Notes under the pieces: model-generated
The model's database searches: none
Told to the model about the DNA's origin: nothing
Seen by the model: only the letters and a program-made list of their open reading frames with translations
Origin: Isoetes taiwanensis
Lineage: Eukaryota; Streptophyta; Lycopodiopsida; Isoetales; Isoetaceae
Reading direction: 5' to 3'
Assembly (NCBI GenBank): GCA_021234155.1
Contig: JAJEKV010000017.1
Coordinates: forward strand, 7,105,253 to 7,169,252
Length of the DNA: 64,000 nucleotides
In this document: positions 1 through 49,649 of the stretch, in pieces
Layout of the letters: each line of letters starts with the position of its first letter
Position numbering within the stretch: position 1 is the first letter of the stretch
Program-made: the position numbers and the translations under genes

Positions 1-1333
1 TAAAACACAGGGGCATCTCATGAATTTTGACATATTCTATTCTCAACAGGCCATATTCTACCCTTGCGAAGCATCAAGTTGGAATTTCACATTAGTTTGT
101 TGTTCCTAGATCTATATTCCCTTATCTCTATCTATCGGAGGATTGGGTGTTCTTTCTAGGGGCTTAGACAAACTAGGTCACATGACCAATTGATAAAAAA
201 TCTATTAATAAAAACTCTATTTTCAGTGGTAACCGCACTAGTCCTAGAACATCCAAAGTCCACTATATATAGACCTGTCCTATGGTCTACTGTAGGGTTC
301 TCATGGATGTTAAAGTAATATTTATCTATCTATTCTATTCCATTCTCAAAACGGTCCACTGCTGCACTATTTGGCATCTCCTTTTGTGTTTGTGGCCAAT
401 CAATTACCTACATTGATGAGGTATTTATCTAAACTATGAAGAGTAGTTTAGGGAGCTCTTTATAAGCGAATATAGTTCTCATCTACTAGGACACAAAATA
501 GCTAATTCTCTCATGCATTCTTATTGTGGCACTTTTCATGTCCCTTCCTCCATGGGACAGTAAAAAAATGATCTTAAAGGTTTCTTATTACATTATCTTC
601 TAGTTGGCATTCAGAATGGTCTTCCTTCTACTCCTCCAATAATAATATCTTCAGCCATTACCCCCAAAAAAAAAATAAATAAATAAAAAAAAAAAAAAAT
701 AAAATAAATAAATCTATATAACATTGCCCTTTTCAAACAAATACAAGTTAATGTAGGCCATATAATAATGTGTTGGAAATTAATCTGGTAATCTATATAT
801 TCTACTTTTACCATTTGGCGTGATTGACATTCTTTAACGTGTTCTATAATCTTTTTTACACCGTTCAAAAGATTCTCTTATTGATGTATATATTCTATTG
901 AAACTGAATATCCAACTGTGCTCAATGCATCTATCACTATGTTGAGATTTCAAGGTTTATAAATAATTTGGAAGGCAATTATGCTTGAATTAGTTTTAAA
1001 CATCTCTGCCTCATGCTTAGTGGGAAGAAGTGGTCCAGTCTCTTTTGTGATGTTTATGCAACTAAACTAGCAAGTTGAGGAGGTAGTGTCACCAAGACTT
1101 TAATACGTGCACAACTGCAAGAAACTCCTTTTCGTGAGTTGGGATCTAGAATCCATATACAATGCCTCTTCCTTCTTGCATAGGCATTGATTCCATCTCC
1201 TAGTTATTGACCTATATTTTTATTTCTTTTTATTGAAGGACGTCATTTTATTCATCATCACATCATGAGTACAATATATGTATCACATATGGAAGCCAAT
1301 CCACTACCTAGGCATGATATGTTAGGCGCTGCT
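1..1333. other. No gene seen
   Basis: AT-rich sequence with no reading frame of protein-like composition. A short A-rich tract lies near 660-710. Around 300-350 there is a short (TATC)-type tract that resembles the tail of the SINE described at 5.67 kb. Nothing else can be supported. Confidence 0.5.
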
Positions 1334-1335
1334 TT

Positions 1336-1446
1336 GTATGTGATCATCTAGTGCATGTGATAGGTTTAAGGTCCTTGCTACGAACTCCTTTGCATGTGAT
1401 CATCTAGTACATGTGGTAGGTTTAAGGTCTCTACCGCAGGACCGGT
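1336..1446. repeat. Two-unit 56-bp tandem repeat
   Basis: The segment starting at 1336 (core ATGTGATCATCTAGT) recurs at 1392 with a few substitutions, giving a period of about 56 bp. It directly abuts the tRNA-like SINE remnants, so it may be part of the same composite repeat. Confidence 0.6.
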
Positions 1447-1449
1447 TGG

Positions 1450-1575
1450 TTGTACTTGAACCCGTGAGCTCAGTGCAATGGATTTTTAAGGTCCCCATTA
1501 CTAGACCGATGATGGCCATGTTTGAACCCGTGACCTCGGATGTAGCAGTCTAAGGTCCTGCCACTAGACCATGCC
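1450..1575 (-). mobile_element. tRNA-derived SINE remnants (two heads)
   Basis: Read on the minus strand, 1571-1561 gives an A-box-like TGGTCTAGTGG and 1529-1520 gives a B-box-like GGGTTCAAAC. This is the internal RNA polymerase III promoter spacing of a tRNA-like head. A second, more diverged head follows, with GGTCTAGT near 1508 and GGGTTCAAG near 1464-1456. Two partial units in a row suggest tandem or nested tRNA-like SINEs. It could also be degenerate tRNA pseudogenes, but neither segment folds obviously into a complete tRNA. Confidence 0.5.
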
Positions 1576-1599
1576 CCAAAATTTCCATGGTTGCTTAAG

Positions 1600-4500
1600 G
1601 TATGGTATCACAAGGATGGAAACTTTTATTGGCGCCTTCCTTGAGTGGCTCAAGTACTACCACAATAATGCTCAAACCTGAGAGCTGAAGTGGTTCATAC
1701 AACGATTTAGCTAGGGGCACATTATTAAAACTTCGACTAGAGTGCTATCCTTTTAGAAACCCTTTTAGACTAAGAAAAGAACATAAGGCTATAATAATTC
1801 ATCTTTTCCTTTGCTTACTCTTGAATTTCTCTCATTTGTAATAACTATCGATGAGATCTAATAAATTGGCATATCTTCTCTTACTCTAAGGGCATCATAG
1901 ATGTCTTTGATATCATCAAATCATAAAAATTTTGTCTCTTTACTTAGTTCTGTGCACAAAAGCCTCTTTTATATCTGTTCTGTATCTTCCCATAAATTTA
2001 GAGGCAACACAGATCCCTAGGTTTGGGTCGATTGCATATTTGGATGCTGAGCTTGAGATGGCTCCTAGCAAAGCATGTAGATGATTGGAATTGATTTGAG
2101 GGATGTGGCATTGGTTGGGCACTCCTAATGTTGGAGCTATTTTTAAAATGGGATTTGCGTTTAGGGTAAAATATCCACGAAATGTGCCTCTTGTCCTCAT
2201 CAAAAGTATTTGGGGGTGATATGTTTATGGTTCTAAGTAAATCCATCTCATTATGTAGTATACATTATATCCTATAGGTAGGAATAAGTAATTGGTAGAT
2301 CCCTCCGGATCCTTTATATGATGGCATATATCAAAGAAGCTAAGTACGATGTCATTCTATATAGTTAGCTTCTCATGAATAACTTTTTCTCAATATATCT
2401 CCCAAGAATATTTTGGCAACATTGATTCAATACTGCGCCTTATGATCCCTTATATAAGATTGTTCTAATGGTCGAACCATGTTGTGTGCATATATTAACT
2501 ACAATAGGTTAGTAGCATCTCCTCTATCAAGACCACCTCAGTGTGCTTGGTCAACTAACTCGAATGCAAAAAAAAATTGGCAACTTTAGTTGCAATTATA
2601 CTTGATTTTCATGGTTAAGAATCATTAACTTGACCCTATAACTACCTCTTGCTCAAATTTTGAGGTTTTGTGATGCCACACAATAATCATCATTTAGGCA
2701 CAACCTCTCTTTCTTTACGAAAGAACTTTGACCTACTAGCTGCCAGTCTCGGACGTGGTCACTATGCCTTGCTAACCTTGGTTGTTGCTTCACGTTCTCA
2801 ACTGCAGCTTCTTGGCCATGTCCCAAGTGCAAAAGACCAAAACTCGGCCCCCAAAACGTGAACTCTCAATATGTAGCATAATAACATGGGGTTTTTTTTT
2901 GTGTTTTTGTACGCTTTTTACAAAGGTTTTCCTAAGATTTCATGGCGTATTCAAATGGATGTACTAATGCGTACATCTAGAGTGCACCATTTCTTAGTCG
3001 TTGATTTAGTTTTTTTTTTTCAATGGTCCAACATCCAAGGGCTCACAACAAAAGCCCTCTTTTTATTTTAGGGGCTGAACATGCAAGCCTCGTGGATAGC
3101 ATTTCAAGGCAATGTGTTTCTTCCAGCCGCGTCTATCTTCAATCATGATCTCCGCTTCCTTTCCCGCGTCTATCTTTTTCCGTTGCTATCTTCTGATCTT
3201 CCCTCCGTTCAAATCTGTTTTTCAGAGGACACAAGGGCCAGGTTACTCCAGTGCAAAGGGATTTTTGGATTCTTGCAGCACTCAGAAAAAAAAATGCAAC
3301 ATTGGCGGTCTTGAACTCTTCCAGTTAGTAAATTGGCAGCCTTGATTGGGATAAGTTTTTTCGAAAAATTGGTGGTGCCCAATAAGAATGGGCTTTGAGT
3401 CGAGGTTAAGAGGACTTCCATTTGACAATAACGAGATCGTTAGAGATTGGGAAACGAATTTGAAGCTACAGGGTAGTTAAGTGATTTATCTTAGGGATCA
3501 GATCTCCAAGGATTGAAGCTCGTAAGCCATTGATGCTATCCTCCGGTTCGCTGCCATGTTCCGCTTGCTTAGAACCCGCATCACGGCGTGGGTGAAAGGT
3601 CTATTGCAAAGCTCAAATGCGGCCATCATTTTCATCTAGGTAATACTTGTTTACTTGTATCGCATTAATCGCCTTCTTTAACCATGACTAAAGCAACGTT
3701 ATATTTTGAGAAACAAGTAGTAAGATCAATGCGCTAACTGCAGGCACGTCGAAGATGGTCGCTAGCTTTATGCAAATGGAGGTTGTTCACACGAGGACTT
3801 TGGATTTGATGAGCTGACAACAGTTTATGAAGATGCTTATGAAGTATATGATATGTTTCATCCTCATCATGATGTTGTAAGGAGCTCATTTTGTTTTGCC
3901 GTTCCTTTCATCTCTGCAGAAAAGCCACTTTCTTGGAAAATGACTTAGGGTCATTTCCCATGACCTTAGCCCCGTGGACATTGCCTCACAAAACGAGACT
4001 ATTGCAAGAAAATGGTGGCCACATGCTTTCATGGCCGAACTCGTATGTTATCCTTCCAACAGAGACAGCGGTCGGCGGACTCAAATAAAATCGAACGCAT
4101 GCATTGCAATCGAGATGACTTTCATAGAGTCCGACCATTAGCCCGGAAGCCCAAAGAAATTTTGAAAAAAGGTTGAGCCTGATAAGATTCAACCCAGGAG
4201 ATTAATTGCACTTGAATCCACAGCTGAAGATAGTGAAACATTTTCTCGATCTTTCACACACACTTGATCGAGAATGACACCATAGCCGATTACTTGCAAA
4301 GTAAGCTTGGATGAAAGAGTAAGCTTGGACCAAAGAAGAAGATAATCCTTTACAAATTCCCTCGAAGTTATACAATGATCCAAATTTGAGATTTTATTAT
4401 CAGAAGATTTTTGCCTGCTGCTAAAGCTTTGGCTGATGAGCCTATGAAATGGTGAAGTCTATGGAAAAGGTGATCCTTAACAGTGATAAGCTTCTACAAC

Positions 4501-15529: not shown

Positions 15530-16797
15530 ATATTCCCATAACTAAGCAAGTTTGATGGCAAAAAGAAGAAACATCGCAAGTCTTCAAAGCCTCCGGGCAC
15601 AGCATAATCTCAAATAATCCAGCATAATCTCAAATAATCCAACGTCAACAACTATGTATAAAAATGGTCCCATTTACTAACTGGACAACGAGGCAATGTA
15701 TTGCATTTAATAAAGAATGGAGAGTCATCACAATTGCAGGACAAGTAGGAGATAAACTAAGCAAGGAACAAAGAGAAACAACAAATACAATATGGAATTC
15801 AGGCTCACAAGCCCAGAACTAGAAACTCCCAGTGCGGATGGAAATCAATCTTGAAATGTGCCTTATGTTGTATCTCCATGCAATTCTAGTGTAGAGCTAG
15901 TGTAGTGCTGCACCTAGTTATCGTAGAAAAAGGGACAAATTAGAAGACGTGATAAAACAAGGATTCATAACGGGATTCATAACATGGATTCATAACAAAC
16001 AAGAAGGGAACTACACAGCATTCTAGACGTTCTCAATCAAGGCAAATAGATAGAATTTAAATTGAGATTCATTGGCCAAGAACTGTTGGGAAGCATTCTT
16101 GATTTAGAACCTAGAGCAATACTACATGGCCCCAAAGGACTTTCTCAAACAATGAAAATGTAGTTAGAGCAAGGAAAACATAAGTAGGCCAGGCAAACCG
16201 TCAAATTGTGTTACAGTTGAAGGTCATATGAGTCCCAAAATACACATGAAATCAGTCATTCTATCCATTTCCTAGGTGCCGCCAGGTTCTTCACCAAGAT
16301 TCATATTATGATATTGTGCTTGAACAAGAATAAACTAGCATTGAGAGCCAACAACCTGATGCAGCCGTAAGCACATTCTACATTCTTGTTCTTGATGACG
16401 GGAAAACTTGAATCCGGCTTGAAATAACCTCGAAATGACCTAGACCTGTACAAAATGCCAGAAAAAGAAATGTCTTGCAACTACTTAAGAAATAAACCTG
16501 TTGGAGAACCAAAGTCTGGCGAAACTCTGCTACTGTCGCATGAAACTCATATTGCAAAACTTTAGAAAACTAAGGCCAAATGGAATGCCGCTATAGCCGA
16601 TGAAGAAAACTGACTGCAAACTTGTTGGTGCTTGGATCCATTCAAGCATACAAAACTTGAAACCCTAACTTAAGAGGAATCGGCCTGTAGACTCTGAAAT
16701 TCACAAGTTGCCGGAGTGACCCGGTGCTCAGCAGCACAGAAAATAAAACTGAAAAGGATATAGAAAACATATTAAAATGGGTGAAAATGGCTAGTAT
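15530..16797. other. No gene seen; one 20-bp duplication
   Basis: The 20 bases at 15601-15620 are repeated exactly at 15621-15640. Otherwise this is AT-rich sequence without coding signal, between the copia element and the TIR element. Confidence 0.5.
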
Positions 16798-16848
16798 ATA
16801 TAATAATACAAGAAATTTATCGCGGCGGCCAAGGCCGCCGCGAACATT

Positions 16849-18359
16849 TCTCTTCCCGGACTTACTTCTGTAAGGGCAGATTCGTATATCTTTGGAATGG
16901 TGCGAAAGATGTTCTCGAAATCTAAGACTTAATAATGAAGAATTTGTGTTAAAAACATGAATTTGAGGATTAGCAAACTTGATTCTGCATTGTTGCTTCA
17001 TGATTCGTGCCCATATGATAGATGAGGATTGAGGACATGGGTTTTGTTCGAGCATGGCATCCGCACCCGTAAATATCAGATGGGGTCATGCTTAAACCAT
17101 GGCCATCTCCGTAGTATATCTGCCTCGGTTGGGGTCATGTTTAATCCGTATATGCCCCTCATTATCGTGTTAAAACCATAGTTACACATATTACTTGTTA
17201 TGGAGAGGAAATTTCTGAGATTTAAGCTGGTTTAAACATGATCGTGAATGATATTTACCGCTCTAGTTCTAGACACGGCATACCAAAATTACCACCAAGA
17301 AAAATCATCCATCTCAAACTGCAGATGGTGGACTCAGAGAAATCGGCATAGGTAAAGGGTTTTAGGATACTCTCCATCGAAAACTATGGAGCTGTGGAGC
17401 ATCTAAGCAAAAAATTCTGTTGGGTAAACCTATGAATGCCGGTGAAGCCCGTGCAGCACGACCCAGCGGTGCAACCTAGAAAAATCGGCGCCAGCATGAT
17501 TTCTGTTTTTCTTGGATGCAAGATTTTTGCAAGCTATGGCGGTGAGAGATCCCTGGCTTTTTCTTCAGTCATTCCTCTGTTTTTGTTGAACCGTGTGTGC
17601 CACATTTCACTCAACAGATTTACTCGAAGTCAGAAAGGGCAGGGAAAGTTAAGGAATAGCACCGCAGATGTGCCACAGATGTCCTTAATCTGTAAAAATG
17701 GGAAAAAATTGCCAGAGTAAGATAACGAGTTCATGTTTGTCTAAAAAATCAAAGTTTTCCTGGAGTAAGATACCGAGTTTGTGTCTGTCTAAACGCTGCT
17801 CGTTGCGCCGCCGCCATGTTTCTTCCAGAAACCTTCAGGTGGCGTAGGCTTCTTTATACATAAAAGATGCTTCTTCTTTTCGTCAAATATAGTTGCTATG
17901 TCATCATTTTGTAAAGTGTAGATGCGAGACACGAATTGCACATCAATTAATTGTTGATGTTAAGAATCATTGTGGTTTAGTTTTGAGTTTACGTTAAATG
18001 TCTACTTCTAGGAAATCTACATAGGCTAAGATATATCTTTTACTAATCCCGGTAGCTTTGGAATGACTTATATTACATCGACCTTAGGTCATTAACACTT
18101 TCGTAGATGTACTTGTGAGAAGATCTTGTTGCATCATTGTGCAAGATTATCAATGTGGTAACAAATGGCCATTTATCTAGTTATGTGAATGGCAACCTTT
18201 AAAAGCTTATATAAGGTCCTCTAAACCACACCCACCATTTGGGCATTGCCTTCCCAAAAATAACTCTTTGGAATGAAAATGTCGTACATGCCAACTATAT
18301 AGACTTAACATTCCATGCATTCATCACACTTAGACATCACACTTAGACAGATTCTATTC
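16849..18359. other. Left interior of the TIR element; no gene recognised
   Basis: Open frames at 17055-16642 (minus) and 17436-17720 (plus) show no domain. The phrase GGGGTCATG followed by TTAA occurs twice near 17080-17150, possibly a small decayed repeat. Confidence 0.35.
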
Positions 18360-18713
18360 TAAGGTCGAATTTCCACTAACGGCAGGTTTGAAAATCAGGT
18401 TTGAAAATGACGTGATCTGGTAGCTTCCAGGCAGTAATAACGAAAAACTCGGAGTTGCCGGCATTTTCAACTTTGAAGCAGTGTATGCCGAATTCCTAGG
18501 AACACTAGCATCCTACCTGTTGAAATCGAGAATTTCCGATAGGAAAAAAAAATTGCAGGAAGTTTTCCGGTCAAAATATGTGGGTTTCTTTATATTTTTC
18601 CGGATGAAATCTAGATTTTCATAGGCTTCTTCCGCCTAACTTAAATTTTACAGGAAATATACTTGTTAGGTTTTTAGAGTTTGTCCCACACTGCTTTGAA
18701 GCCTTCCATTAAT

Positions 18714-18859
18714 GGCAACAATAAAAACAAAGCTATTTTTAGGTAAGTTCTTCCTATTGCCTTTGAATTTTTATTCTACCGGGCAAGGCAACAATAAAAA
18801 CAAAGCTATTTTTAGGTAAGATCTTCCTATTGCCTTTGAATTTTTATTCTACCGGGCAA
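18714..18859. repeat. 73-bp tandem repeat inside the MITE
   Basis: The unit starting GGCAACAATAAAAAC at 18714 recurs at 18787 with one or two differences. It ends in TCTACCGGGCAA, which then forms the left arm of the adjoining palindrome. Confidence 0.85.
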
Positions 18860-18885
18860 TATTGCCCGGTAGAATAAAAATTCAA
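18836..18885. repeat. Perfect 50-bp palindrome
   Basis: The 25 bases at 18836-18860 are the exact reverse complement of 18861-18885 with no spacer (centre CGGGCAATATTGCCCG). The right arm is an inverted copy of the end of the preceding tandem unit, so it arose by an inverted duplication. Confidence 0.92.
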
Positions 18886-19249
18886 TGGCAACAATAAAAA
18901 CAATGCCACCTATGCAGTTACCGCAGCTAATGGAAAGATGCAAGAACGGCAGAACTTGATGTGGAAATTTGTTGTTGGCTACTATTTTTAAGGAATACTC
19001 CCACTGCCGTTAGTGGAAATCCGGCCTAATAATAAAACACAACCATAAAAACTACCCAAAATCTCTCTTATTAGGTCAAAGTAACTCGGGACCATTTCAG
19101 AACACAGAAGGAAAGAGACTCTATCAATTAAGACCAAGATGTGGAGTGGTAAAAGAGACATTGATTTTTTTAATATATAGCTTCCAAGTTGTAGTGAATA
19201 TGTCATCCCATTTCAAGACAAAGACTAGATGCCCCAATCATCCTAAGGT

Positions 19250-19756
19250 TTAGAATGAAGCTATGGGCGCAGAAGATTGTCTTGGAGACATCATGAGCTT
19301 AAAATCTGTGAAATTTACCAAACCGTCCCCATCAGAATCCACCCTGCTTATCATGTGCTCACATTCTCTTACCTTGTGTTTGTGTTGTTGAACAAATCCT
19401 AAATTAGAGAGCACAGCATGAAGCTCTTGGGCACATATGAATCCATCATTATTGCGGTCGAAAATACGGAAAGCTTGATATAATTCCTGCTCTTCCTCCT
19501 CTTCATTGCTTGAACTTTTATACGAATCAATAAACTCCTCAAAATCAACTAAGCCATCCCCATTTTCATCCACAGATTTTAGCATAAGCTGAACTTCGTC
19601 TGCAGGGCTAGGAGAGTCTAACTTTGCCATGAGCTGCTGCAGCTCTTCAATGCTAATAAAACCATCTCCATCCAAATCAAGGACGTTGAAAAATTTTTGC
19701 ATCTCCTTTCTTTCTTCATCAAATGGAGCTTGCATTTCTTTTCCAATGGAAAGCAT
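19250..19756 (-). CDS. Calmodulin-like Ca2+-binding protein (CML), four EF-hands
   Basis: An uninterrupted 168-residue frame encodes a calcium sensor that would bind Ca2+ and regulate target proteins in cytosol or nucleus. Four EF-hand loops are visible: residues 27-38 (DLDGDGFISIEE), 63-74 (DENGDGLVDFEE), 100-111 (DRNNDGFICAQE) and 140-151 (DSDGDGLVNFTD). Loops 1-3 end in the usual Glu; loop 4 ends in Asp, which can weaken or alter binding. An acidic linker (residues 84-90) joins the two lobes. There is no N-terminal Met-Gly acylation signal. The start is the first ATG of the frame (Met8 is an alternative). Lack of introns is normal for plant CML genes. It lies inside the candidate TIR element, 220 bp from the nested MITE, and is the only clearly intact gene of the window. 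Confidence 0.9.
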   Translation of the reverse strand: MLSIGKEMQAPFDEERKEMQKFFNVLDLDGDGFISIEELQQLMAKLDSPSPADEVQLMLKSVDENGDGLVDFEEFIDSYKSSSNEEEEEQELYQAFRIFDRNNDGFICAQELHAVLSNLGFVQQHKHKVRECEHMISRVDSDGDGLVNFTDFKLMMSPRQSSAPIASF

Positions 19757-20657
19757 GATGTTTTTAGGGACCCTTTTGGGCTTAGAACTGAATCAAAATG
19801 CCAGTGATAGCGATGCTCTAGAAGAAAATCCACCTCTGGCGGAGTTTCTATTTGGGGTTCACTATGCTGTTATTTCTGGACCTCATTGAATTATATAACC
19901 CAAATTCTTAGAAACTGCATAGAAGGCGAAACCCACAAATTTCTGCACGCAATAGATGACTCGCAAGCAATAATTTGGCTAAGTTACCTATTAAGCAAAC
20001 TGCTTTTTGGACTCTAATGTAGTAAAAGATGTGAAAAGATAAAACAAAACGAACCTGCTGGAAGCTCCATCCGTATTGTACTCTGTTTTGTACTTTTGTT
20101 TGCAAGATCCGAGAAGCTTCAGGCCACAAATTATGGCCACACACCATCAAAAGATTTTAACCGATATTTTGAGGTGTCTGTTTTGGCGTATGACTCAGAA
20201 TTAAGAGGAGCATTTTTTTTAGCCGAGAAAAAAAATTCGGAAGATGGAATGCAGGTTCTTACCATGTTGAGCTTCCGCCGTTGTATCGAATCTGGCCCCA
20301 GCTGGAACCTATGTGTTAGGTTTAGACCCACCGACCGCGAACGATCTGCAAGCAAATGAAACGAAGAAATAAATTTACAAATTTGAATCGGCTTACCTTG
20401 AACAAATTGGAGCAGATTGGACTGGAACAGAGCGTGGATCTCGCTTCTTCTTGCACATAATCTGCTTCAAAATATAGAATATGATGCAAATCCAGAAGGA
20501 ATAGGACCGAGAACCATGTCTGCATTTGCTTATTTTTTATGACCTGTTTTAACACCTAAAAACTTTGGGCGCCTGTTCTGCATGCACGATTCTGGCAATC
20601 TGTCTAGCAAGAATCTAGGCAGCTTTGGCCCTACATTCTCTAAACATTGCTTATTGA
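19757..20657. other. Upstream region of the CML gene
   Basis: This interval would contain the promoter and 5' UTR of the minus-strand calmodulin-like gene. I see no TATA box that I can place with confidence. Short frames on both strands look like chance. Confidence 0.35.
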
Positions 20658-21086
20658 ATGAGTAATTTCAAGCACAGGGAAAAATCCGGCGCCAGCGAAA
20701 CAGGGAGACCCTCGAAGTGTGGACCTCTGCAGAGTTTCAGAACTATTGGATCTTGCTTCTTGCCGAGAAGTGCCATAGACAGATTAGCTGGAGCCGAAGC
20801 CCAAATAGATGTAGAAGTTTGTCTTGGAAGCGCCAGGCCACCGCTATGGAACTTGGATGTGGGCGACTATAACCAGATATGGCATGCTTTGAAGATTGAG
20901 AGGCCGTCTGTACCGGCAAACCTTTTTTTGGCGTCAAATCTGGACGAACAAAAAAACCGTTTCATCGTCGTGTTTGAAGACTCCAAAAACAAGCGAAAGT
21001 GGAGGAAAACTACATGCAGTCCGATTTCTGACAGTTCTTTCCTGGCAGTGGCAATATCTCCAGGTTACTTCTTGGGCCTGCCTTGA
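20658..21086 (+). CDS. Uncharacterised 142-codon open frame
   Basis: A plus-strand frame opens with MSNFKHREKSG and contains a basic KNKRKWRK stretch near its end. There is no family resemblance, no signal peptide and no membrane segment. It lies inside the candidate TIR element, 0.9 kb upstream of the divergently oriented CML gene. It could be an exon, a relic or chance; amino-acid composition is protein-like but that is weak evidence. Confidence 0.2.
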   Translation: MSNFKHREKSGASETGRPSKCGPLQSFRTIGSCFLPRSAIDRLAGAEAQIDVEVCLGSARPPLWNLDVGDYNQIWHALKIERPSVPANLFLASNLDEQKNRFIVVFEDSKNKRKWRKTTCSPISDSSFLAVAISPGYFLGLP

Positions 21087-21089
21087 TTT

Positions 21090-22008
21090 CCCAGTTTTAG
21101 TCCCAGTGTATCAATGAAAACGTTGGGTGCAGTTACATCTAATTCTGATGATGTTGGGATTTCTCCTTCCTGCTGGGGAAGCTTATCTTTTTTTTGCTAC
21201 ACTTATCTAGAACACGTTAAAACAGCTGCATATGCATCAAACAGCAAATAACTATTCATCCAGATTTTTAATTGCTGGGTTGCATATGATATGTTTATTC
21301 TACTTTGCAAGTTGCATGATATTAGCATGTGAAGGGAAGTTTAGGATTTTTCTCCTGGGACAATGGACAATCAAATAGACCCATGCGTTATTTAGTCTAG
21401 GACCTCCTACATGGAAGGCTGCCAAAAGTTTAGGACATTGTTTTGAATACGATTCGGTTGATGTAATTGCACTTGCTAATCTGGCTTCATGACTCTTACA
21501 GATTCCTATCTAATAAATACGCAATAATAAAATATATGCTTCAACATTGGAAGTCCATTTTCTTTGCAAAAGGAAAATGAGAAGTCCTTTCGTTTCAAAT
21601 GCCTAGCAAATTAACATCGTAGGAACGAGCGTTTTGCCCTCAGACATCTTACGTACTATCCTTGCTATTTAATCATTGCCATGGTATTGACAATTGTCTC
21701 TCCACAAGTTTGTAACCCCTTCTTAATTAGTCTAAGAATATTAATTTTTATCTCCCAATTTGCAACCATGGGATGAGCACAATAGAACTATAATAAATCT
21801 ATCTCCATTCCATGGTTTCACCACAATTTCTAGGTGCCTAGGAATAACTACACAAATGTGAGGTCAACTACATAACTACACAATTTCTAGGCAAAGAGAA
21901 ATGAGCGCGATGGTTTTCATTGCTTTCGATGGGCTTTATTCACTTGCAACAACTAACAAGACTCAGAATTTATTGCAAGTTCCAACTTCACAAGGTTTGG
22001 GCTAAAGT
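21090..22008. other. Right interior of the TIR element; no gene seen
   Basis: AT-rich sequence with no long frame and no recognisable domain up to the right inverted arm. Confidence 0.45.
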
Positions 22009-22116
22009 AATGTTCGCGGCGGCCTTGGCCGCCGCGATAAATTTCTTGTATATAATAATGAACAAAACCAAATGCAATGATTCCAAATAGCAACTAAATG
22101 CTTGAGGAAAAAGATA

Positions 22117-22256
22117 GTGGGAAGATCAAGACTAAAACCAGTGCTCAAGGAGATGCAATGAGTTGATGAAGGAAAAAAGACGAGAAGAAGGGTGTATAAA
22201 GGGATGAAACCCTAACTAACTCAAGATCTATGGGGCAATGGTTCTAAGAATACCAT
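22117..22256. repeat. Dispersed repeat, copy 2
   Basis: Near-identical to 7394-7534 in the same orientation, with one small indel and few substitutions. It starts 58 bp beyond the direct repeat that flanks the TIR element. Confidence 0.75.
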
Positions 22257-27899: not shown

Positions 27900-28658
27900 T
27901 TTAATTCATTGTCTTTTATAACGTCATATAAGACATGCTTCTCTGTGCAAGCTTGTGTTAAGCTGGGTCATTCTAGCATCAAGCATGAACATTTGCTAGA
28001 AATATCACATTCGAAGTTCAGACCTCGAGGGCAAAATAAAAATCTTCTATAAGATATTGCTCCTCCACAAATCATATTTTTTGTGGTAATGTTGCAAACC
28101 CTTTTTTTCATTTTGCTAGTTCTTATCAATGTAACTTTTGTATATATTCTAATTAATTGTTGGCTTATTACGTAGGAGCATAAGTCTTATTGATCTTGAA
28201 ACATTAAAAGCTACTGTTTTATCCAGTGTAATGAAAATGTTCATAAAAAATCTCCATATTTCAAATCTATTTGTTGCTCATTACATTTTTCACATGCCTA
28301 TACAGCTTTACCAGGTTAAAAACAAATCTATCAAGAAGTTAATCAACTACTAATTTGACAAGGTTTGTGATACTAATGCTTTACGCTATCAAGAACAAAA
28401 CTGCTCAATTCTATCTAGAAGCTTTTATACATTGATCTATCATTTGTAGGGCTATGGGCATGAAATGCATTGATAGAAAATTGAGGTGTAACTCCCCAAA
28501 TTTCAACTTCAAAATCGCAGATCTTAATGACTCAAATTTCAAATAAACTTCTATAAAACCTCCAATTATTCATAAATTTTATACTTGGATATTGACATCA
28601 ATGGACTCCCAAGTATATATACAACATTCCAAGTGTATATACTAATAATTGTAAAAAT
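27900..28658. other. No gene seen (3' flank of the glycine-rich gene)
   Basis: AT-rich. Copy B carries a 2.8-kb insertion at the position equivalent to 28108. The part adjoining 28658 would be the 3' UTR of the glycine-rich protein gene. Confidence 0.45.
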
Positions 28659-29165
28659 CTACCACCCACGTCCCCATCCACTATAGCCACCTCGACCATC
28701 GTATCCATCTCGAACCACTATACCCTCCTCGACCACCATATCCACTGGACTACCATACCCTCCATATCCTCCTCGACCACCATATCCACCTGGACCAACA
28801 TACCCTCCATATCCTCCTCGACCACCATATCCGCCATATCCACCTCGTCCTTGTCCTCCATATTGATCAACTTCAAGCATCGCAACAGCCTCGGTCTCGT
28901 ATCCACGATATCCACCACTATGGCCTCCACCATATCCATAGCCTCTTCTGCCATATTCACCGTGTCCTCTATATGGGCCATATCCACCACGACCTCTATA
29001 TGGACCATATCCACCATGACCTCTATATGGACCATATCCACTACCACCTCTATCTTGATCTTCTTCAAAAGCTTGAGGTCGCATTGGAACAAATTAGCGC
29101 GAGCTTGTTTCTACCACTACCATCAATGCTACCATCAAAATGAAAGCTATTGCAAAGGCCTTCAT
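28659..29165 (-). pseudogene. Secreted glycine-rich protein gene, interrupted (copy A)
   Basis: The ATG at 29165 starts a signal-peptide-like sequence, MKAFAIAFILMVALMVVV, typical of plant cell-wall glycine-rich proteins. In the same frame, after one stop codon (TAA at 29096-29094, codon 24), comes QAFEEDQDRGGSG and an array of GYGPYRGHGG then GGYGGRGGYGGYG units to the end at 28659. A frame change within the array replaces some glycine repeats with a VDMVVEEGIVV reading. Such proteins are structural components of the wall. The single early stop could be real decay or a sequence error, since the copy-B stop lies at a slightly different base. Confidence 0.7.
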
Positions 29166-29199
29166 GGTTGCAGGCTGATGGATTGCACATTGGAGCCCC

Positions 29200-29690
29200 T
29201 CATTTTTGTAGTACTACTACTTTGCCACGTGTCTTGCTCCTCATTGCATGTAGAGGGTGTCACAAAGAAAAATGTTGGTCAACAACTAAGAAGAGAAAAG
29301 CTCTCAAAGTGCCTCATGTCAATTGCATGTGTACCATCTTACGACTAAAGATGTTACATTTGTGGCCTTCATTGTCTTGTAATGTCACTAGGGTTCACAC
29401 CCCCCGATTTCCAAGACATGTGCATTCGGGATTGCTTACAAGAGGCCATTTAAGCCTTTCGTTTCTTCATTTCTAGAAACGCTTCCATCAATCAGATTGA
29501 GTCCTGCTCAAAGGAGACAATCGATATTCACCATGTTGGTTTGTTCTCGCATGCATTATTCTTGGCGATCTTTATCGTCTTTCTTTCGTGCATACTTCTT
29601 GTGTTTCTGTGATAGCAATTTCGTCTAATATATTCCTAAGTCCTCATATCTGAAATTGTTGTGTAGACTTACGCTACCAAATAGGTCTCC
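29200..29690. other. Upstream region of the glycine-rich gene; no other gene
   Basis: No protein domain. Differences from copy B are frequent small indels. Confidence 0.35.
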
Positions 29691-29697
29691 TTTTTAG

Positions 29698-31400
29698 GGC
29701 GGTGCCTCAAAGCTTGCCTGTTCCAATTGATATAGCCAGGGATCGCCCTTCAATTAAGGAAGTATACAAACAAAGCCCTATGAGCAGAGGTAAGTCTTTC
29801 CATCATTTCGTTGTTACACTCTGGACTTAATATATATCTTTTGATTCAAGTGTAGAGCTCTAGACGATTGCAAGGATTTCTTAGTTGATACGTTAGTTAG
29901 CAATGTAAGAAGCGATCACAATATAGTACATAGTGCACTGATTTTCTTTGGTAGAAGCTTGAACGTGCTCTAGAGATCTTCAAGCACCTTCCTACAAACT
30001 GAAAATGGTCTCCTATAACTCCAGTTTGTAGATTGTGATAGATCTAGGAACGTTAAAAGAGGCTCTTCACTTTTCAAACAAATGCCATTGACCGATGGAT
30101 CCAATTGAATGGTAAGGCTGCCACTATAAATTTCTTGTATAAGATATAACTTCTTGCTTCGAACAAATATGGCTGTCCCCTCGCCTTCTATGATTCTGAG
30201 ATTTACCTTTTATCCCTTAATCCTATTTGCGTATTTATATGATTTCCGGTGTGTGAAGATCCTTTTGCGGATTGGTAACAAGGGAGATCGAATCAAAAGA
30301 TTGTGGGTCAGCAAAGACATGTGAGTATCTAGTTGCTGATCATTTCCATTTGAAATTGTGAAGAATAAGATTGATTGAAGATGTCGAAATTATTAAATGA
30401 CAGGATCTTGGGCCAAGCTACCTCATTATGGATGCCCCGAGCTCATGTTATTTGCGGGAAGATCCTTTTGCGGATTGGTAACAACGGGAGATCGAATCAA
30501 AAGATTGTGGGTCAGCAAAGACATGTGAGTATCTAGTTGCCGATCATTTCTATTTGAAATTGTGAAGAATAAAGTTGATTGAAGAGGTCTAAATTATCAA
30601 ATGACGGGATCTTGGGCCAAGCTACCTCATTAAGGATGCTCCCGAGCTCATGTTATTTGCGTGGTTTTGCATGAACTTTAAGTATGAAGAAATAATGTTT
30701 AAAGCAAGTTTCGTGGCTATTTTGATGGGATGATGGATTATGGTAAGTTGCCTTTTGTGTCAGAGCCATGCAATGGAGATGAAAAGATTGTCTTGACAGT
30801 AACAAAGATGTATAAGAATATGGTCACCGATAATCGATATTGCAAGCACTTGATCTTTATGTTATTTTTATTGTTAGAAGTGTGTTTTTTGCCACGCTTG
30901 AGTCGGGGCGAATGCAAATAATGCAGATGATGGTGTTGTTGCATCTTTTTCTACTTCCAACTTTGCATCACCAATGTCTAGCAGCATGGCGTATATGCCA
31001 GGCCTATGTTGTGCACAGGACTTGGTTCAACTTACTTTCCAAGTGATACAGATGCCATTTATATGGAAATGGAATTAAGATGAATGACGGGCAACTTCTT
31101 TAAAGGGAAGATCTGCAAAGTCCTCACGAATGCTATTGTTGCAAAATAAGTGTTGTATTAGCTACCGCATAGTTTTCTGCTTCATTGTCCTAGTGTTGAA
31201 GTTGCGATGGGATTCGGAAGAATTGTGGCACAGTTTCAGAAGTATCACCCCAGGGATTACATAACATATTTGGACATTTTCGAGGAATTTTGCATGAAGG
31301 TGAATTTGATATACTTGTTTAGTAGCTTTTTGCCATTGGGAAAGCAAAGTTCCAGGATGGACACTGCCCATGTATTGCAGGTTAAGAGTGGAAGGAAGTT
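29698..31400 (+). pseudogene. Exons of an unidentified gene (copy A)
   Basis: Several segments look like exons with matching splice signals. 29698-29789 (acceptor TTTTTAG, donor GTAAGT) reads AVPQSLPVPIDIARDRPSIK. A block ending at the donor in ACATGTGAGTATC reads KILLRIGNKGDRIKRLWVSK. Another, after TGACAG, reads DLGPSYLIKDAPELM in composite with the second unit. A later one at 31207 reads GFGRIVAQFQKYHPRDYITY. The middle exons lie in a 203-bp tandem duplication. I do not recognise the protein. In copy B the first acceptor has lost its AG. Confidence 0.4.
30255..30660. repeat. 203-bp tandem duplication containing an exon
   Basis: Unit 1 (30255-30457) and unit 2 (30458-30660) both start GAAGATCCTTTTGCGGATTG and end CTCATGTTATTTGCG, with a few substitutions. 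Each carries the exon ending at the GTGAGTATCT donor. Copy B has the same two units near 47881-48280. Confidence 0.85.
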
Positions 31401-31458
31401 GTAAACTATAACATTCCACTTGATTCAAACAACAAGAACCTCAGAGGCTGGCTCTGGA

Positions 31459-31609
31459 GCAATCTGGATAGACCTACATGATAAGGAACATATCCAAGCC
31501 ACTGCTGGCCATCCAAAAGCCATTGTTCACAAGTCAATCTGGATAGACCTACATGATAAGGAACATATCCAAGCCACTGCTGGCCATCCAAAAAGCCATT
31601 GTTCACAAG
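31459..31609. repeat. 75-bp tandem duplication
   Basis: Bases 31459-31533 recur at 31534-31609 with essentially one inserted A (core GGATAGACCTACATGATAAG). It is present also in copy B near 49097-49240. Confidence 0.85.
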
Positions 31610-31995
31610 TTATCAAAGATAATCCTAACAAAGGAGGAGAGTGCATATTTGCATGCTTATGGCAGGTTTAGCCATAGACTAATTTATCTTACCAATTGTG
31701 GCGAGAAAAATAAATGAGTCATTTCTAGCAAGCCATAAATGGAAGGTTGCTTCTCATGCCAGTTCCACAGAATTCCGAAGCTGTAGATATCCGATTTCTA
31801 ACTAGCTTTGCCCAAATAAGCTACCTCGGATGTAATGTAACCCCTCTTTCCTGTCTGTGCCGTTGTCTGTTCTGCAGTACTATATACCAGAAGAAATAAA
31901 CCAAAAATTATATAGACTATGTGCAAGTTTCAAACTATGTCATATATTTTATATCTCATTTCCTTTCTCAAAAATAAAAGTAGAACGGAGGGAAA

Positions 31996-33260
31996 CTATC
32001 TGGTAATAGGAAGGGAAGCCCTACTAGTGCTGGTACTACCAGATATGGTAGATTCAGAAAACAAAGCTGAAATGGAAAGCATTGGCATCTTAGGGCCAAA
32101 TGACAAAGTAGGTTTGGAATCAGGTAGCACCTCACCATTGAGGATCAAAAAGCATCTTCTCACGCTTTGCCTTGATTTTGGATCAGGATTGCTGCAGAGC
32201 AAGTATTACGATAAAACCAATTTCATTTCCTCCTCGTTATAGTCTGATTTGAGCTGAGGATCAGCAACAATGAGCAACGCATCTCTTAATTGGACTTCCC
32301 AGACCCAATCCAATAGAAATTCTTGGCCTTTAATAACAACAATAATAGAACTTCCACATGCCACCTCCAAAAGAAGAATTCCAAAGCTGTAGATGTCTGA
32401 TTTTTCACTTGTTTTGCCCAAATAAGCTAGTTCTGGTGCAATGTAGCCCCTTGTTCCTGTCTGTGTCATTGTCTGTTCTGCAGTATTATCTTCCATGAGC
32501 TTTGCAAAACCAAAATCTCCTAAACATGCCCGGAATTTGCTATCCAATAGCACATTTGCAGCTTTAATGTCTCTATGAACTATTCTTTGATCCCATCCAC
32601 TATGTAAAAAGGCCAATCCATCTGCCACTCCCTTTACTATCTCATTATCTCTGACTCCATGATAAAAAATGATCTGATGAGAATAGATACTTATCCAAAC
32701 TTCCATTTGGCATATATTCGTACACTAGAATTAGCTTACCCTGTTTATGGCACCAGCCCCTCAAGCTAACTAGATTCTTGTGTCTCAGACGGCCTATCAC
32801 AGACAGCTCTGCCATAAATTGTTGATGTATTTTTGTAGACATCACTTTAACTACTACCTTAGAACCATCACTGTGCAATGTTCCTTTCTAAACAGTGCCA
32901 AATGCCCCCTTTCCCAGAATTTCTTTCTCGCTAAACCTCCTTGTGGCAGCACTTAGATCAGTATAGCGAAATTGGGAAGATCTAGATTCAACCAACTGAG
33001 GTTCCCAGTTGTTTTCTGGATCTGGTCTCTTCTTCCTCATTCGGACCTTTTTCATGCAAATGATACCGCAAATTATGGTGCATAGGAATATGAACAGTAT
33101 TATCACAATTACTGCTATTAATATAGTGCTTACTGGCTTCGATCCAGATGGTAAAGCAGGGATGTCACTAATATTAAAATTCCAGGAGTAAATTTGGTAT
33201 AGATCACCTCCGTCCCAAGTTGCAGCAGAGAATTCGAGCAATTCACAAGATTTATGTTTC
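31996..33260 (-). pseudogene. L-type lectin receptor kinase pseudogene (copy A)
   Basis: From high to low coordinate: the end of a legume-lectin domain (EFSAATWDGGD then YSWNFNIS), a membrane segment (TILIAVIVIILFIFLCTII), a juxtamembrane FRYTDLSAATRRFSEKEIL, P-loop GKGAFGTV, the VAIK-type lysine in KVVVKVMS, catalytic loop HRDIKAANVLLD, DFG, GTRGYIAPE and a C-terminal LCSNPDPKSR. This is a plasma-membrane receptor kinase architecture. Breaks include TAG right after GTV (a Tyr is expected), a frame change near 32690 and TAA at LVLS-stop-YLLC near 32205. Only the last part of the lectin domain is present. Confidence 0.9.
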
Positions 33261-33264
33261 AGAT

Positions 33265-33900
33265 GCTGAAACATGGTCATTTTCATAGATAACTCGGCGC
33301 GCCATCTCCAAACATGAATGCACAACCATGGCAACTAGGTTCGGATCTATTGGCCATTCAAATGATTCCAAACAATGTCTTGCTACTGCAAAGCGGCTCT
33401 TGAATTCTAATTGCCACATCGGGAGGAGACAGATCCAAACTCCATTCCGTCAGTATCTCTTGCTTTGCATCTCAACTGCAGCTTTTCAGCCACATGCCAA
33501 TTGCAAAAAACTAAAACACAGCCCCCAAAATGTAAATCCTTTAAGAACTTACCAATTCACAGGGTTTACGTTTCAGAGGCATGTAACTTATAGTCAGATT
33601 CAACTAGGACCTTGGACCATGCCAAGACGTAAAAGGAGGGTGTTGGCATAGAAGACGGATCCTTAAACACCCTGGAAGCAGCTTACCTAAGAGTCCTCTC
33701 TCGAAGGCACTGGCGACCGACGGGCAACTCCTCCATTGGAGAACTGTGATTTGGCTCTGCTAACGGACTCAGAACATTGATATTATCCTGAGAAACATGT
33801 TTCGTGGCCAGAAGACCACTCCATCTCCACGAAGCATCAAACAAGCTCATGCCCAACACACTCTAGTCAATTGGCCTGGGAGATGGTTGCTGAATACTGC
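33265..33900. repeat. Family R copy, full form (copy A)
   Basis: Matches 5190-5590 and, further on, 22655-22870. It directly abuts the truncated lectin end of the kinase pseudogene, which suggests its insertion or a deletion removed the rest of the lectin domain. Copy B has the same junction (near 50880). Confidence 0.55.
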
Positions 33901-33989
33901 CATCATATAAGTGTTTCTTTCTTTGGAATACTGATCTTATAACGAAGTTCGGGTAATTTTGCCATTCTAGATGATATGGCAAAGTTGAA

Positions 33990-34380
33990 TTGTCATTCTG
34001 AAGCCTCTGTAATGCCAGAATGGTAAAACACTTGGGTTTCTACAGTGTTGCCCACAGGATGCTCTGCTGATCGATAAGTTCTCTTGGATCCATCTTGGAT
34101 TTTTTGGTCCTTGAATGGAGGATTCAACAATCAGATAGGATAACCGAGCTCCAAGATAGTGAGCATTAGTGTACCCCCTTCCCCCCTCCCTCGAAGGAGC
34201 GTTGCTAGGAAAGGGGAACTCTTGCAACTAACACCTGCGACATCAGACCCTGCTCTGGTATACGTGACAAGAAGTACAACAGATACAGGATTTTGACAAG
34301 AAGAGGTCAACTTAGCTTTAGAAATCTAGAAACGACTTCTGGCCATCATTATACACCAGCAATCTCAATGTCTGTGTAGC
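33990..34380. repeat. Repeat arm inverted relative to 36890-37141
   Basis: The stretch 34120-34370 (GGATTCAACAATCAGATAGG ... GACTTCTGGCCATCATTATA) is the near-exact reverse complement of 36890-37141. In copy B the left member is present (51770-52010) but the right one is missing. Confidence 0.85.
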
Positions 34381-34440
34381 TGGCCTGTGCATGTCTCATA
34401 TAACTCAGACTCGCTCAAGTAGCTCGGACAGGATGTCTAG

Positions 34441-34896
34441 CTATTGCAATCTTGTCCACAGCTTTTCCCAAGGCACAGTGTCAAAAGCCTTAGCGAAGTC
34501 TACGAAGCAGCAATACAGATCTTGTCGACGGTTCCTGCTGTCCTCAACCAAAGTCTGCAGCGTGAAGATAGGGTCTATGATTGAGTGTCTTGGCCTGAAT
34601 CCTGCCTGCATGAGTGCCCGCACTTCTACTGCCTCTAGCCATCCTGTCAACTACCGCGCGAGGATCCCAGCGAGGAGCTATACAAACACTGAGCTGATCA
34701 TGATGGTCCGGTAATTGGCCGGGCAGTGTGGGTCTCCTGCCTTGTAGATTTGAACAACCCTGCTAATGGTCCATTGCGGGGGAAAACCTTCCCGCAATGT
34801 CTTGTTGAGCATGTCGGTTAGTACCGGTGCCATGGATAGTCCTGCCCACTTGAGTAACACCCGCCTGTATGCCGTCAAGGTCTGGTGCTTTTCCAT
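34441..34896 (-). pseudogene. Non-LTR retrotransposon RT fragment (copy A)
   Basis: The minus strand reads MLNKTLREGFPPQWTISRVV ... YKAGDP ... NYRTI, then GFRPRHSIIDPIFTLQTLVE and CFVDFAKAFDTVPWEKLW. These are the N-terminal reverse-transcriptase blocks, including motif A with its catalytic Asp (FVDFAKAFD). The wording is not L1-like; it resembles Jockey/CR1/I-type LINEs. The fragment is frameshifted between the blocks. Confidence 0.85.
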
Positions 34897-34959
34897 TGGC
34901 TAGACGTTGCAGCCCTGCAGCCCCTCGCCTCACAGGATTTCCAGCACTAGGCCCTGCTG

Positions 34960-35400
34960 GAAATCAGAAAGGCTCTAGTATTACCATTGGATTTCCCTTA
35001 TCCTTTCCTGAGAGGAGCCTCTAGTATTACCATTGGATTTCCCTTATCCTTTCCTTCTTCCAACATTTAGTCTTCTCAGAAGTTCTCTTGCTCGAATAGT
35101 GCAGTAGGGTGGTGAGGTTTGGCTTTAAGGATTGGAATCTTGTTTAATAATGATCAACCTTGAGTTTACACTTCGTAACAAATATGTATTAAAAATAGTG
35201 GTTTCAATTTCTTCTGGAACCTGTGATTCTTTAGAATTAGAATCTATAAACGAAGAGATGATATGGCTTTAAGGTTGTTCTAGCATGATCAACCTTGAGT
35301 TTACACTTCGTAACAAATATGTATTAAAAATAGTGGTTTCAATTTCTTCTGGAATCTGTGATTCTTTAAAATTAGAATCTATAAACGAAGAGATGAGATT
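34960..35400. repeat. Local duplications; 135-bp unit doubled only in copy A
   Basis: CCTCTAGTATTACCATTGGA occurs twice at 34975-35055 in both copies. A unit beginning GATCAACCTTGAGTTTACAC starts at 35152 and again at 35287 (135-bp period). Copy B has only one such unit (near 52820), so this duplication followed the segmental duplication. Confidence 0.85.
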
Positions 35401-45733: not shown

Positions 45734-46283
45734 CATTTTGCTAGTTATTATCAATGTAACTTTTGTATATATTCTAATTAATTGTTGGCTTATTACGTAG
45801 GAGCATAAGTCTTATTGATCTTGAAACATTAAAAGCTACTGTTTTATCCAGTGTAATGAAAATGTTCATAAAAAATCTCCATATTTCAAATCTATTTGTT
45901 GCTCATTACATTTTTCACATGCCTATACAGCTTTACCAGGTTAAAAACAAATCTATCAAGAAGTTAATCAACTACTAATTTGACAAGGTTTGTGATACTA
46001 ATGCTTTACGCTATCAAGAACAAAACTGCTCAATTCTATCTAGAAGCTTTTATACATTGATCTATCATTTGTAGGGCTATAGGCATGAAATGCATTGATA
46101 GAAAATTGAGGTGTAACTCCCCAAATTTCAACTTCAAAATCGCAGATCTTAATGACTCAAATTTCAAATAAACTTCTATAAAACCTCCAATTATTCATAA
46201 ATTTTATACTTGGATATTGACATCAATGGACTCCCAAGTATATATACAACATTCCAAGTGTATATACTAATAATTGTAAAAAT

Positions 46284-46792
46284 CTACCACCCACGTCCCC
46301 ATCCACCATAGCCACCTCGACCATCGTATCCATCTCGACCACTATACCCTCCTCGACCACCATATCCACCTGGACTACCATACCCTCCATATCCTCCTCG
46401 ACCACCATATCCACCTGGACCACCATACCCTCCATATCCTCCTCGACCACCATATCCGCCATATCCACCTCGTCCTTGTCCTCCATATTGATCAACTTCA
46501 AGCATCGCAGAATGACCTTTTGTCCTCGTATCCACGATATCCACCACTATGGCCTCCACCATATCCATAGCCTTTTCTGCCATATTCACCGTGTCCTCTA
46601 TATGGGCCATATCCACCACGACCTCTATATGGACCATATCGACCATGACCTCTATATGGACCATATCCACTTCCACCAGATATCTTGATCTTCTTCAAAA
46701 GCTTGAGGGCGCATTGGAACAAATTGCTAGCTTGTTTCTACCACTACCATCAATGCTACCATCAAAATGAAAGCTATTGCAAAGGCCTTCAT
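46284..46792 (-). pseudogene. Secreted glycine-rich protein gene, interrupted (copy B)
   Basis: The ATG at 46792 starts the same signal-peptide-like MKAFAIAFILMVALMVVV. It is followed by TAG at codon 22 (46729-46727). A further one-base frameshift near 46676 precedes the array. The distal array is cleaner than in copy A: GGYGGYGGPGGYGGRGGYGG and on to GRDGYDGRGGYGGWGRGW in one frame. A composite of both copies would be needed to see the ancestral gene. Role: presumed structural cell-wall protein. Confidence 0.68.
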
Positions 46793-47329
46793 GGTTCGCG
46801 GCTGATGGATTGCACATTGGAGCCCCTCATTTTTTTGTAGTACTACTACTTTGCCACGCGTGTCTTGCTCCTCATTGCATGTAGAGGGTGTCACAAAGAA
46901 AAATGTTGGTCAACAACTAAGAAGAGAAAAAGCTCTCAAAGTGCACATGTCAATTGCATGTGTACCATCTTACGACTAAAGATGTTACATTTGTGGCCTT
47001 CATTGTCTTGCAATGTCACTAGGGTTCACACCACGATTTCCAAGACATGCGCGTTCTGGATTGCTTTGCTTACAAGAGGCCATTTAAGCCTTTAGTTTCT
47101 TCATTTCTAGAAACGCCCATCAATCGTATTGAGTCCGCTCTCCAAAGGAGACAATCGATATTCATCATTGGTTTGTTCTCATGCATTATTCTTGGCGATC
47201 TTTATCGGGTCTTTCTTTCGTGCATACTTCTTGTGTTACGGGATAGCAATTTAAAAGTCTAATATATTCCTAAGTCCTCATATCTGGAAATTGTTGTGTA
47301 GACTTCGCTACCAAAGGTCTCCTTTTTAA

Positions 47330-49040: not shown

Positions 49041-49649
49041 ATAACATTCCACTTGATTCAAACAAATGGCAACCTCAGAATGGGCTCTGGTAGGAGCAAC
49101 TGGATAGACCTACATGATAAGGAACATATCCAAGCCACAGCCATCCAAAAGCCATTGTTCACAAGTCAACTGGATAGACCTACATGATAAGGAACATATC
49201 CAAGCCATCGCCGGCCATCCAAAAAGCCATTGTTCACAAGTTATCAAAGATAATCCTAACAAAGGAGGAGAGTGCATATTTGCATGCTTATGGCGAGTTT
49301 AGCCATAGACTAATTTATCTTACCAATTGTGGCGAAAAATAAATGAGTCATTTCTAGCAAGCCATAAATGGAAGGTTGCTTCTCATGCCAGTTCCACAGA
49401 ATTCCCAAGTAGCTGTAGATATCAGATTTCTAACTAGCTTTGCCCAAATAAGCTACCTCGGATGTAATGTAACCCCTCTTTCTTGTGCATTAATGGTTTA
49501 TGCGCTCTGCTAGCACTATATACCACTATATACCAGAAGAAATAAACCAAAAATTATATAGACTATGTGCAAGTTTCAAACTATGTCATATATTTTATAT
49601 CTCATTTCCTTTCTCAAAGTAGAACGGAGGGAAACTATTTGGTAATAGG

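Follow-up and report, generated by a model that had tools for sequence, protein, structure and literature searches.

The 64,000-nt stretch of Isoetes taiwanensis DNA analysed here (the window) contains, at positions 16808–22049, a segment with the outward appearance of a cut-and-paste transposon carrying a gene, and the question it raises is what kind of element this is. The first-pass annotation described a non-autonomous, possibly Mutator-like element with palindromic 41-bp terminal inverted repeats (TIRs), bordered on either side by the same 10-mer. As far as the layout is concerned, this description is accurate. Positions 16806–16851 and 22006–22051 form an inverted repeat of 46 nt that is 98% complementary, within which 16808–16848 and 22009–22049 make up an exact inverted 41-bp core. 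Each arm contains a GC hairpin with a 10-bp stem and a 4-nt loop, and shuffled sequences folded equally well in 1/200 and 0/200 cases for the two arms. The 10-mer ATATAATAAT is present on the plus strand in the same orientation on both sides, at 16798–16807 and at 22050–22059.

The left flank, 16344–16798 on the plus strand, is a copy of a genomic repeat whose right half resumes at 22051–22144. This repeat is unbroken in 6/6 of the paralogues that were fetched, and seven paralogues reach the border, the one besides these six being C573:69930–70408. Because the six fetched paralogues are empty at this point, we conclude that 16808–22049 fills a single insertion site; the boundaries proposed from the arms agree with the empty sites, and insertion at two separate sites was rejected, since the empty paralogues point to one. 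The 10-mer ATATAATAAT is missing from all six.

The search of the genome that the first-pass annotation had proposed for the arm was run with the left 93 bp and returned 386 candidates. Forty of these were scored, the window's own place included, and all 40 match at 89–100% over 90–93 bp, so the arms are no chance feature, and the non-autonomous element belongs to a large family. In the window and in loci L009–L045, 37 matches to ATAAATTTCTTG were found with one mismatch allowed; 28 with a hairpin-like context were kept and nine were dropped. Among the 28, which include one false positive and in which C941 and C1073 look like one duplicated insertion, the base after CTTG is T in 26 and TA follows in 24; two window matches have no hairpin. 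The 3′ end of the family is made up of a GC hairpin, 7 nt, CTTG and T, with 11 nt from the 10-bp stem through the end of CTTG, and the hairpin is partly deleted in several copies. We refer to the family as Helitron-type rather than canonical Helitron1 because its 3′ end is CTTG and not CTRR. The left arm has this layout on the minus strand (hairpin 16820–16843, 7 nt, CTTG at 16812–16809, T at 16808) and the right arm has it on the plus strand (hairpin 22014–22037, CTTG up to 22048, then T). By sequence and folding, the two arms are the 3′ ends of members of a large non-autonomous Helitron-type family, which we call Helitron A (left) and Helitron B (right). A second hairpin end was sought in longer flanks of C856, C1039 and C941, and none was found there. 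The 13-mer at 30126, which had been taken as a hint of further family members, was ruled out as independent evidence: it occurs again at 47752, once in each copy of an internal duplication of the window (28103–35261 and 45728–52929, 92%), in neither case with a hairpin.

The opposite end of the family is of a different kind. The 5′ ends read TCTAAACATATATAAT or similar; 16 places with three or fewer mismatches were compiled and 14 were accepted, C453 and C470 among them being copies of one stretch, and TC is the 5′ end of the family. The preceding base is A in nine, T in four and G in one, the G belonging to a CTTG|TC head-to-tail junction; a second junction of this form occurs at C1032. Seven complete copies of 514–2287 bp have both ends, which are unlike and not inverted repeats of each other, and several of their interiors are unrelated. 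Exact flank duplication of more than 2 bp was seen in 0/9 complete copies lying outside a microsatellite, a set that includes C1032 and C1056; the flanks of C1056 match at 8/10. The C1090 copy lies in (AAT)n, with its insertion point at A|T. The family follows the pattern of entering at A|T, or sometimes T|T, and duplicating no target sequence, to which the window compound with its 10-bp repeat is an exception.

What had been read as TIRs are, then, the 3′ termini of Helitron-type copies that have 5′-TC at the opposite end. The Mutator-like assignment is not supported, given these TC-ended copies and the lack of an exact flank duplication above 2 bp in the nine complete ones. A conventional Pack-MULE, with TIRs of 41 bp, a target site duplication (TSD) of 9–11 bp and a gene taken up by a Mutator-like element, would fit the inverted arms, the 10-bp flank repeat and the gene cargo. 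It is nevertheless very improbable: the arms correspond to single 3′ ends, inverted ends are not a feature of the family, and the 10-bp repeat at the window compound has no exact counterpart at the nine complete copies. A plain MULE was rejected as contradicted by the TC-ended copies. The autonomous MuDR-type relative that was to be looked for did not emerge either, the sole MULE-type (SWIM-type) gene found, in copy C1028, belonging to a distinct nested element that has inverted repeats of its own of ~490 bp. It is scarcely credible that the segment is a Tc1/mariner or pogo-type element with TIRs starting CAAG and a TA duplication. Nearly every arm does have T before A, and a Tc5/pogo-like ORF is found in the C856 locus ~4.4 kb from the arm; however, the TC terminus of the C856 copy is reached 2.0 kb away from the arm, short of that ORF, and in complete copies the two ends do not form inverted repeats. 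A TA-duplicating element of this type was rejected, the ORF being beyond the TC end of the copy.

As annotated, no transposase was found inside the element. Ten ORFs were scanned for domains, eight of them at family loci and two in the window; the result was one weak C2H2 finger, in L010, and no transposase. With PF14214 (RepHel), 150/150 scored matches were above the cut-off, among 1813 candidates; when their places were compared by eye with those matching the left 93 bp, none was tied to these ends, and no autonomous element bearing them turned up. Mobilisation in trans by a RepHel protein would be the presumed route.

The interior of the segment divides between the two Helitrons. The 3′ part of the Helitron A backbone (16808–17793, minus strand) has stretches in common with C941, C1028, C916, C1049a, C1049b, C856, C312, C1073, C1053, C453, C470, C1090 and C1087. 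Backbone comparison identifies a captured or inserted 2.6-kb segment at 17794–20381, after which the backbone runs onward to its missing 5′ end at 20382–20841 (minus strand); the pieces flanking the insert sit ~30 bp apart in C1049b. The Helitron B backbone (20942–22049, plus strand), whose 5′ part is missing, resembles C1039 and C1030 and is 95.8% identical to C1039 over 568 bp. C1030 is ~580 bp longer at 20942–21507, and precise intron loss was rejected there, as the joints, inspected by eye, are without GT..AG. Between the two backbones lies the A/B junction, 20842–20941. A TCTAAACATATATAAT-like 5′ end of A or B was sought throughout the element and none was recognised; two strings with four mismatches were rejected, one at 20639 (plus) within a stretch of A backbone and one at 17965 (minus) inside a captured fragment.

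We consider it probable that 16808–22049 is a compound of two oppositely oriented non-autonomous Helitron-type elements, whose 3′ terminators face outward and mimic TIRs. Helitron A would carry the 2.6-kb captured insert with its intact calmodulin-like (CML) gene, and Helitron B would be a relative of the C1039 copy. One of the two probably inserted at the AT-rich 5′ end of its partner or within it, leaving A and B 5′ to 5′, and a later deletion at 20,842–20,941 would have taken away the 5′ ends of both. Nesting of this kind is seen in C1049b, where one Helitron lies within the 5′ end of another: in C1049b minus Helitron Y, the 5′ end of Helitron X can be aligned to the C856 5′ end starting at base 1. 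The statement is based on this alignment, made base by base; a random-join control was set aside, as it could draw true homologues (best 68.5 versus 48.5 for the test).

Such a nested-Helitron history does not account for the 10-bp flank repeat, which is real. Chance is an unlikely source under a simple Markov model, which puts a 10/10 flank match at ~5e-5 (5.5e-5) while taking no account of targets in tandem repeats, for example the (AAT)n at C1090; among 550 cross pairs of independent family flanks, none reaches 9/10 and ten match 8/10. The repeat would be explained if the compound had arrived as a single unit and duplicated a 10-bp target, either with the inverted 3′ ends serving as TIRs or through the joining of a 10-bp staggered break. 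We regard arrival as a unit as possible but rather unlikely. In its favour, besides the low chance of the match and the presence of the 10-mer twice here and not in the empty sites, a target GGCTAGTATATATAATAATGAAC would differ from those sites by a TATA gain and one substitution only, and the hairpin ends coincide exactly with both edges. Against it, the A/B junction has no second copy among the matches (40 scored of 1521 candidates) and the nine complete copies lack an exact duplication of more than 2 bp; moreover, we know of no transposase that uses ends of this type. The particular version in which two inverted Helitron 3′ terminators act jointly as TIRs, so that a gene-carrying compound without a 5′ end moved whole with a 10-bp target duplication, is distinctly doubtful. 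Points that we counted against the compound of two Helitron-type elements are the CTTG end, the flank 10-mer and the 8/10 match at C1056, and further that A and B have no recognisable 5′ end and that neither an autonomous element nor an exact CML donor was found.

Among the nearest systems are the Helitron1-type non-autonomous plant Helitrons, such as rice DHH_Mothra (PMC4683698). Mothra ends in CTAG (CTRR) whereas the family here ends in CTTG, and the window compound differs in that it has a 3′ end on either side while no 5′ end can be recognised in it. The terminator palindrome 11 nt ahead of the 3′ end is as in Helraiser and Helibat; according to PMC4778049, hairpin- or RTS-deleted vectors gave some insertions with a CTTG end beside T, also recorded in maize Helitrons. 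An end that is aberrant there is the regular one in this family. Terminal hairpins and end-like inverted repeats recall Helitron2/Helentron elements (PMC5148889), but complete copies of the present family carry the GC hairpin at the 3′ end and two hairpins occur in compounds. Like the Pack-MULEs and Pack-TYPE elements of PMC8903248, the window element is non-autonomous and has host gene sequence aboard; its ends are inverted and its flanks share a 10-bp repeat; in contrast to them, its termini are Helitron-type 3′ ends and complete copies have no comparable TSD.

If our preferred reading of two nested Helitron-type elements is right, nested rolling-circle elements can mimic cut-and-paste transposons with hairpin TIRs, and automatic annotation could misclassify gene-carrying elements through such mimicry. 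The locus also brings to light a Helitron-type family whose regular end is CTTG, in which copies join head to tail and one member has inserted in the 5′ end of another, together with an intact, apparently captured gene. Should the 10-bp duplication reflect true transposition, it would be a surprising link between rolling-circle ends and a route that forms TSDs.

The cargo itself is composite. Two parts of a presumed captured fragment, 17864–18336 and 19026–19169, are 79% and 88% identical to C1100:12676156–12676637 and C1100:12676002–12676145, respectively. A nested MITE occupies 18352–19037, with MITE-like inverted repeats at 18352–18385 and 19004–19037 (85%) and a further 217-bp piece at 18477–18693; it is a putative PIF/Harbinger element and has relatives in C849, C514, C133 and C1047. 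The CML gene unit (19182–20381, minus strand) is 96% identical to C363, 94% to C1070 and 82% to C1100:12647048. In the adjoining piece of backbone, 20382–20456, the minus strand has a GTAAG sequence resembling a splice donor. Its coding sequence, 19250–19756 on the minus strand, is intact and encodes 168 amino acids with four EF hands, as had been annotated. The suggestion that a host gene was taken up holds to the extent that the gene lies within the 2.6-kb insert in the A backbone, and capture by Helitron A would be its likely route of entry. The exact donor was not found, C363 and C1070 being close relatives. Lineage-specific changes, counted as a measure of selection on the CML gene, are too few for that purpose, with five nonsynonymous and three synonymous in the window copy and six and three in C1070, and the NG86 method gives dN 0.027 and dS 0.065 for the gene.

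The genome searched comprises 1.66 Gb in 1110 contigs, of which the window is G000:C985:7105253-7169252. The exact 41-bp inverted arms (16808-16848 and 22009-22049), their hairpins, the flanking 10-mer, the intact four-EF-hand calmodulin-like (CML) gene and the nested MITE are all present as described in the first-pass annotation. A copy of a genomic repeat makes up the left flank, 15800-16807; its search gave 47 matches, with 40 of 73 candidates scored. Among the matches listed, seven paralogues extend to query base 999, nine bases short of the border; six were fetched, and C573:69930-70408 was left out. In all six, the left flank (to 16798) continues straight into the right flank, 22051-22144, with 91.7-95.7% identity over 84-94 bp of the latter. 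We conclude from this uninterrupted passage that the outer boundaries originally proposed are correct and that the whole 5.2 kb sits at one site, whether by a single event or by nested steps. Where the paralogues show GGCTAGTATAACAATGAA or near-identical sequence, the window shows GGCTAGTATATATAATAAT[element]ATATAATAATGAAC; the 10-mer, found on both sides of the element, is missing from the fetched paralogues.

A search with the 93 bases at the left end gave 386 candidates; all 40 that were scored, one of them the window's own place, match with 89-100% identity, and the arm is therefore the terminus of a large family. Ten more copies were fetched from the 39 others and, with the window and earlier loci, scanned for 3' ends with ATAAATTTCTTG, allowing one mismatch. 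The scan gave 37 matches, with acceptable context in 28 and not in 9; those kept include a false positive (L021 3819) and two window matches without a hairpin (30137 and 47763). CTTG is followed by T in 26 of the 28, the exceptions being the false positive and the end at C1045. One dropped match, L023 4338 in copy C1053, is an end with its hairpin deleted, and here too T comes next.

At the other end, C856, C1053, C453 and C470, the last two being copies of a single stretch, share backbone and all break off at the same point against dissimilar sequence. Read inwards, this point begins with TC and runs on to ACATATATAAT. Sixteen such rows were found at three or fewer mismatches and 14 were accepted, L033 1944 and L022 591 being set aside as doubtful. 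The preceding base is A in nine, T in four and G in one, the G being the final base of a neighbour's CTTG at a head-to-tail junction (L021 2642/2643); C1032 has a second CTTG|TC junction. Seven complete copies with both short ends span 514, 1849, 1975, 1979, 2121, 2144 and 2287 bp, the first, too divergent for BLAST, being counted by its end patterns; several differ wholly in their interiors. The nested copy of L015, C1056 and C1032 bring the complete copies to ten. One lies in (AAT)n, inserted at A|T, where there is no information on duplication. Exact flank duplication is 0-2 bp in the nine complete copies outside (AAT)n, among which the C1056 flanks agree at 8/10.

The family ends agree with Helitron features given in PMC4683698, PMC5148889 and PMC4778049, apart from a 3' CTTG instead of the usual CTRR. 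According to PMC4778049, hairpin- or RTS-deleted Helraiser vectors gave CTTG-ended insertions, and maize Helitrons are said to show such ends too. For the Helitron replicase domain, PF14214, the genome yielded 1813 candidates, with 150 of 150 scored matches above the cut-off; no link of any of these replicase matches to the family was found.

The compound at 16808-22049 comprises two such copies, Helitron A (minus strand, 3' end left) and Helitron B (plus strand, 3' end right). The A backbone occupies 16808-17793 and 20382-20841, parts of which recur in C856, C312, C453 and C470. In C1049b, pieces of both parts lie in the same order about 30 bp apart, a comparison that identifies the intervening 2.6 kb, 17794-20381, as an insert. 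Its edges show no target duplication by eye, none of the 15 inverted pairs found in the window connects them, and about 30 bp of backbone is missing there; capture thus fits better than transposon insertion. The insert holds a two-part fragment resembling C1100:12676002-12676637, with the MITE between its parts, and a CML unit with 96% identity to C363, 94% to C1070 and 82% to C1100:12647048. The CML coding sequence is open in the window, C1070 and C1100 and frameshifted in C363. Adjoining the CML unit, backbone piece 20382-20456 (minus strand) resembles a 5' exon that has a GTAAG donor, and could form a new first exon for the captured gene. Inside the MITE, a 217-bp piece (18477-18693) matches C1045:11237543-11237759 with 100% identity, and nearly the same stretch is likewise matched at C1050:10517760-10517977; the C1045 match precedes an ORF of 483 aa, putatively exostosin/GT47-like, on its upstream side. 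Helitron B, 20942-22049, resembles C1039 and C1030 and lacks the first 81 and 491 bp of these, respectively; Helitron A starts 200 bp short relative to C856. Recognisable A and B parts adjoin at 20842-20941.

A precedent for this arrangement is found at C1049b (L015), where a minus-strand copy, 994-3347, interrupts a plus-strand copy about 20 bp inside its 5' end; removing the inserted copy restores a 5' end that aligns to that of C856 from base 1. On the left, the nesting also produces a 3' end that faces outward; the 3' end of the outer copy itself is truncated. The 5' flank of C1056 resembles a further family 5' end, and these AT-rich ends may be preferred insertion targets. The window compound would have arisen by the same nesting pattern, with both 5' ends subsequently lost. 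Such a history accounts for the inside of the element but not for the 10-bp repeat. Among cross pairs of 24 flanks (n=550), the top match is 8/10, in ten pairs, and a 10/10 match has a probability of 5.5e-5 under a first-order Markov model that leaves out tandem-repeat targets, one family copy being in a microsatellite. The repeat is accounted for if the 5.2-kb unit was inserted whole with duplication of its target, a serious rival which nevertheless requires a mechanism with no candidate named. We give more weight to the nested history, as C1049b offers a documented case of this kind of nesting.

An alignment of 17 rows, two of them the window matches that lack a hairpin, leaves 15 family ends for comparison. 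Six of these (C916, C856, C312, C1039, C1073 and C1087y) have lost all or part of the palindrome, and that of C1049a is shorter but still palindromic. Outside this alignment, C1053 has lost its palindrome too. Such losses probably stem from hairpin-mediated deletion following insertion. C941 (L009) and C1073 (L022) have identical outer flanks, which suggests duplication of a single insertion; of the two, only C1073 has lost 12 bp of the palindrome. A long internal duplication of the window, 92-97% identical (28103-35261/45728-52929, and also 25353-28107/40202-42952), holds the 13-mer ATAAATTTCTTGT twice, without a hairpin and each time followed by ATAAGATATAAC. At C1028:13057000-13069800 (L032/L010), a Helitron copy contains a nested element of about 8.1 kb, probably a MULE, with inverted repeats of about 490 bp (88%) and ORF pieces, one bearing a SWIM zinc finger. 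Past the end of the C856 copy (L014:5363-6172) lies a 270-aa ORF with a Tc5-type DNA-binding domain, pogo-like, and gene-like ORFs occur a few kilobases from family ends in C1045 (the 483-aa ORF), C312 (NPH3) and C1039 (F-box) (L013, L016 and L019).
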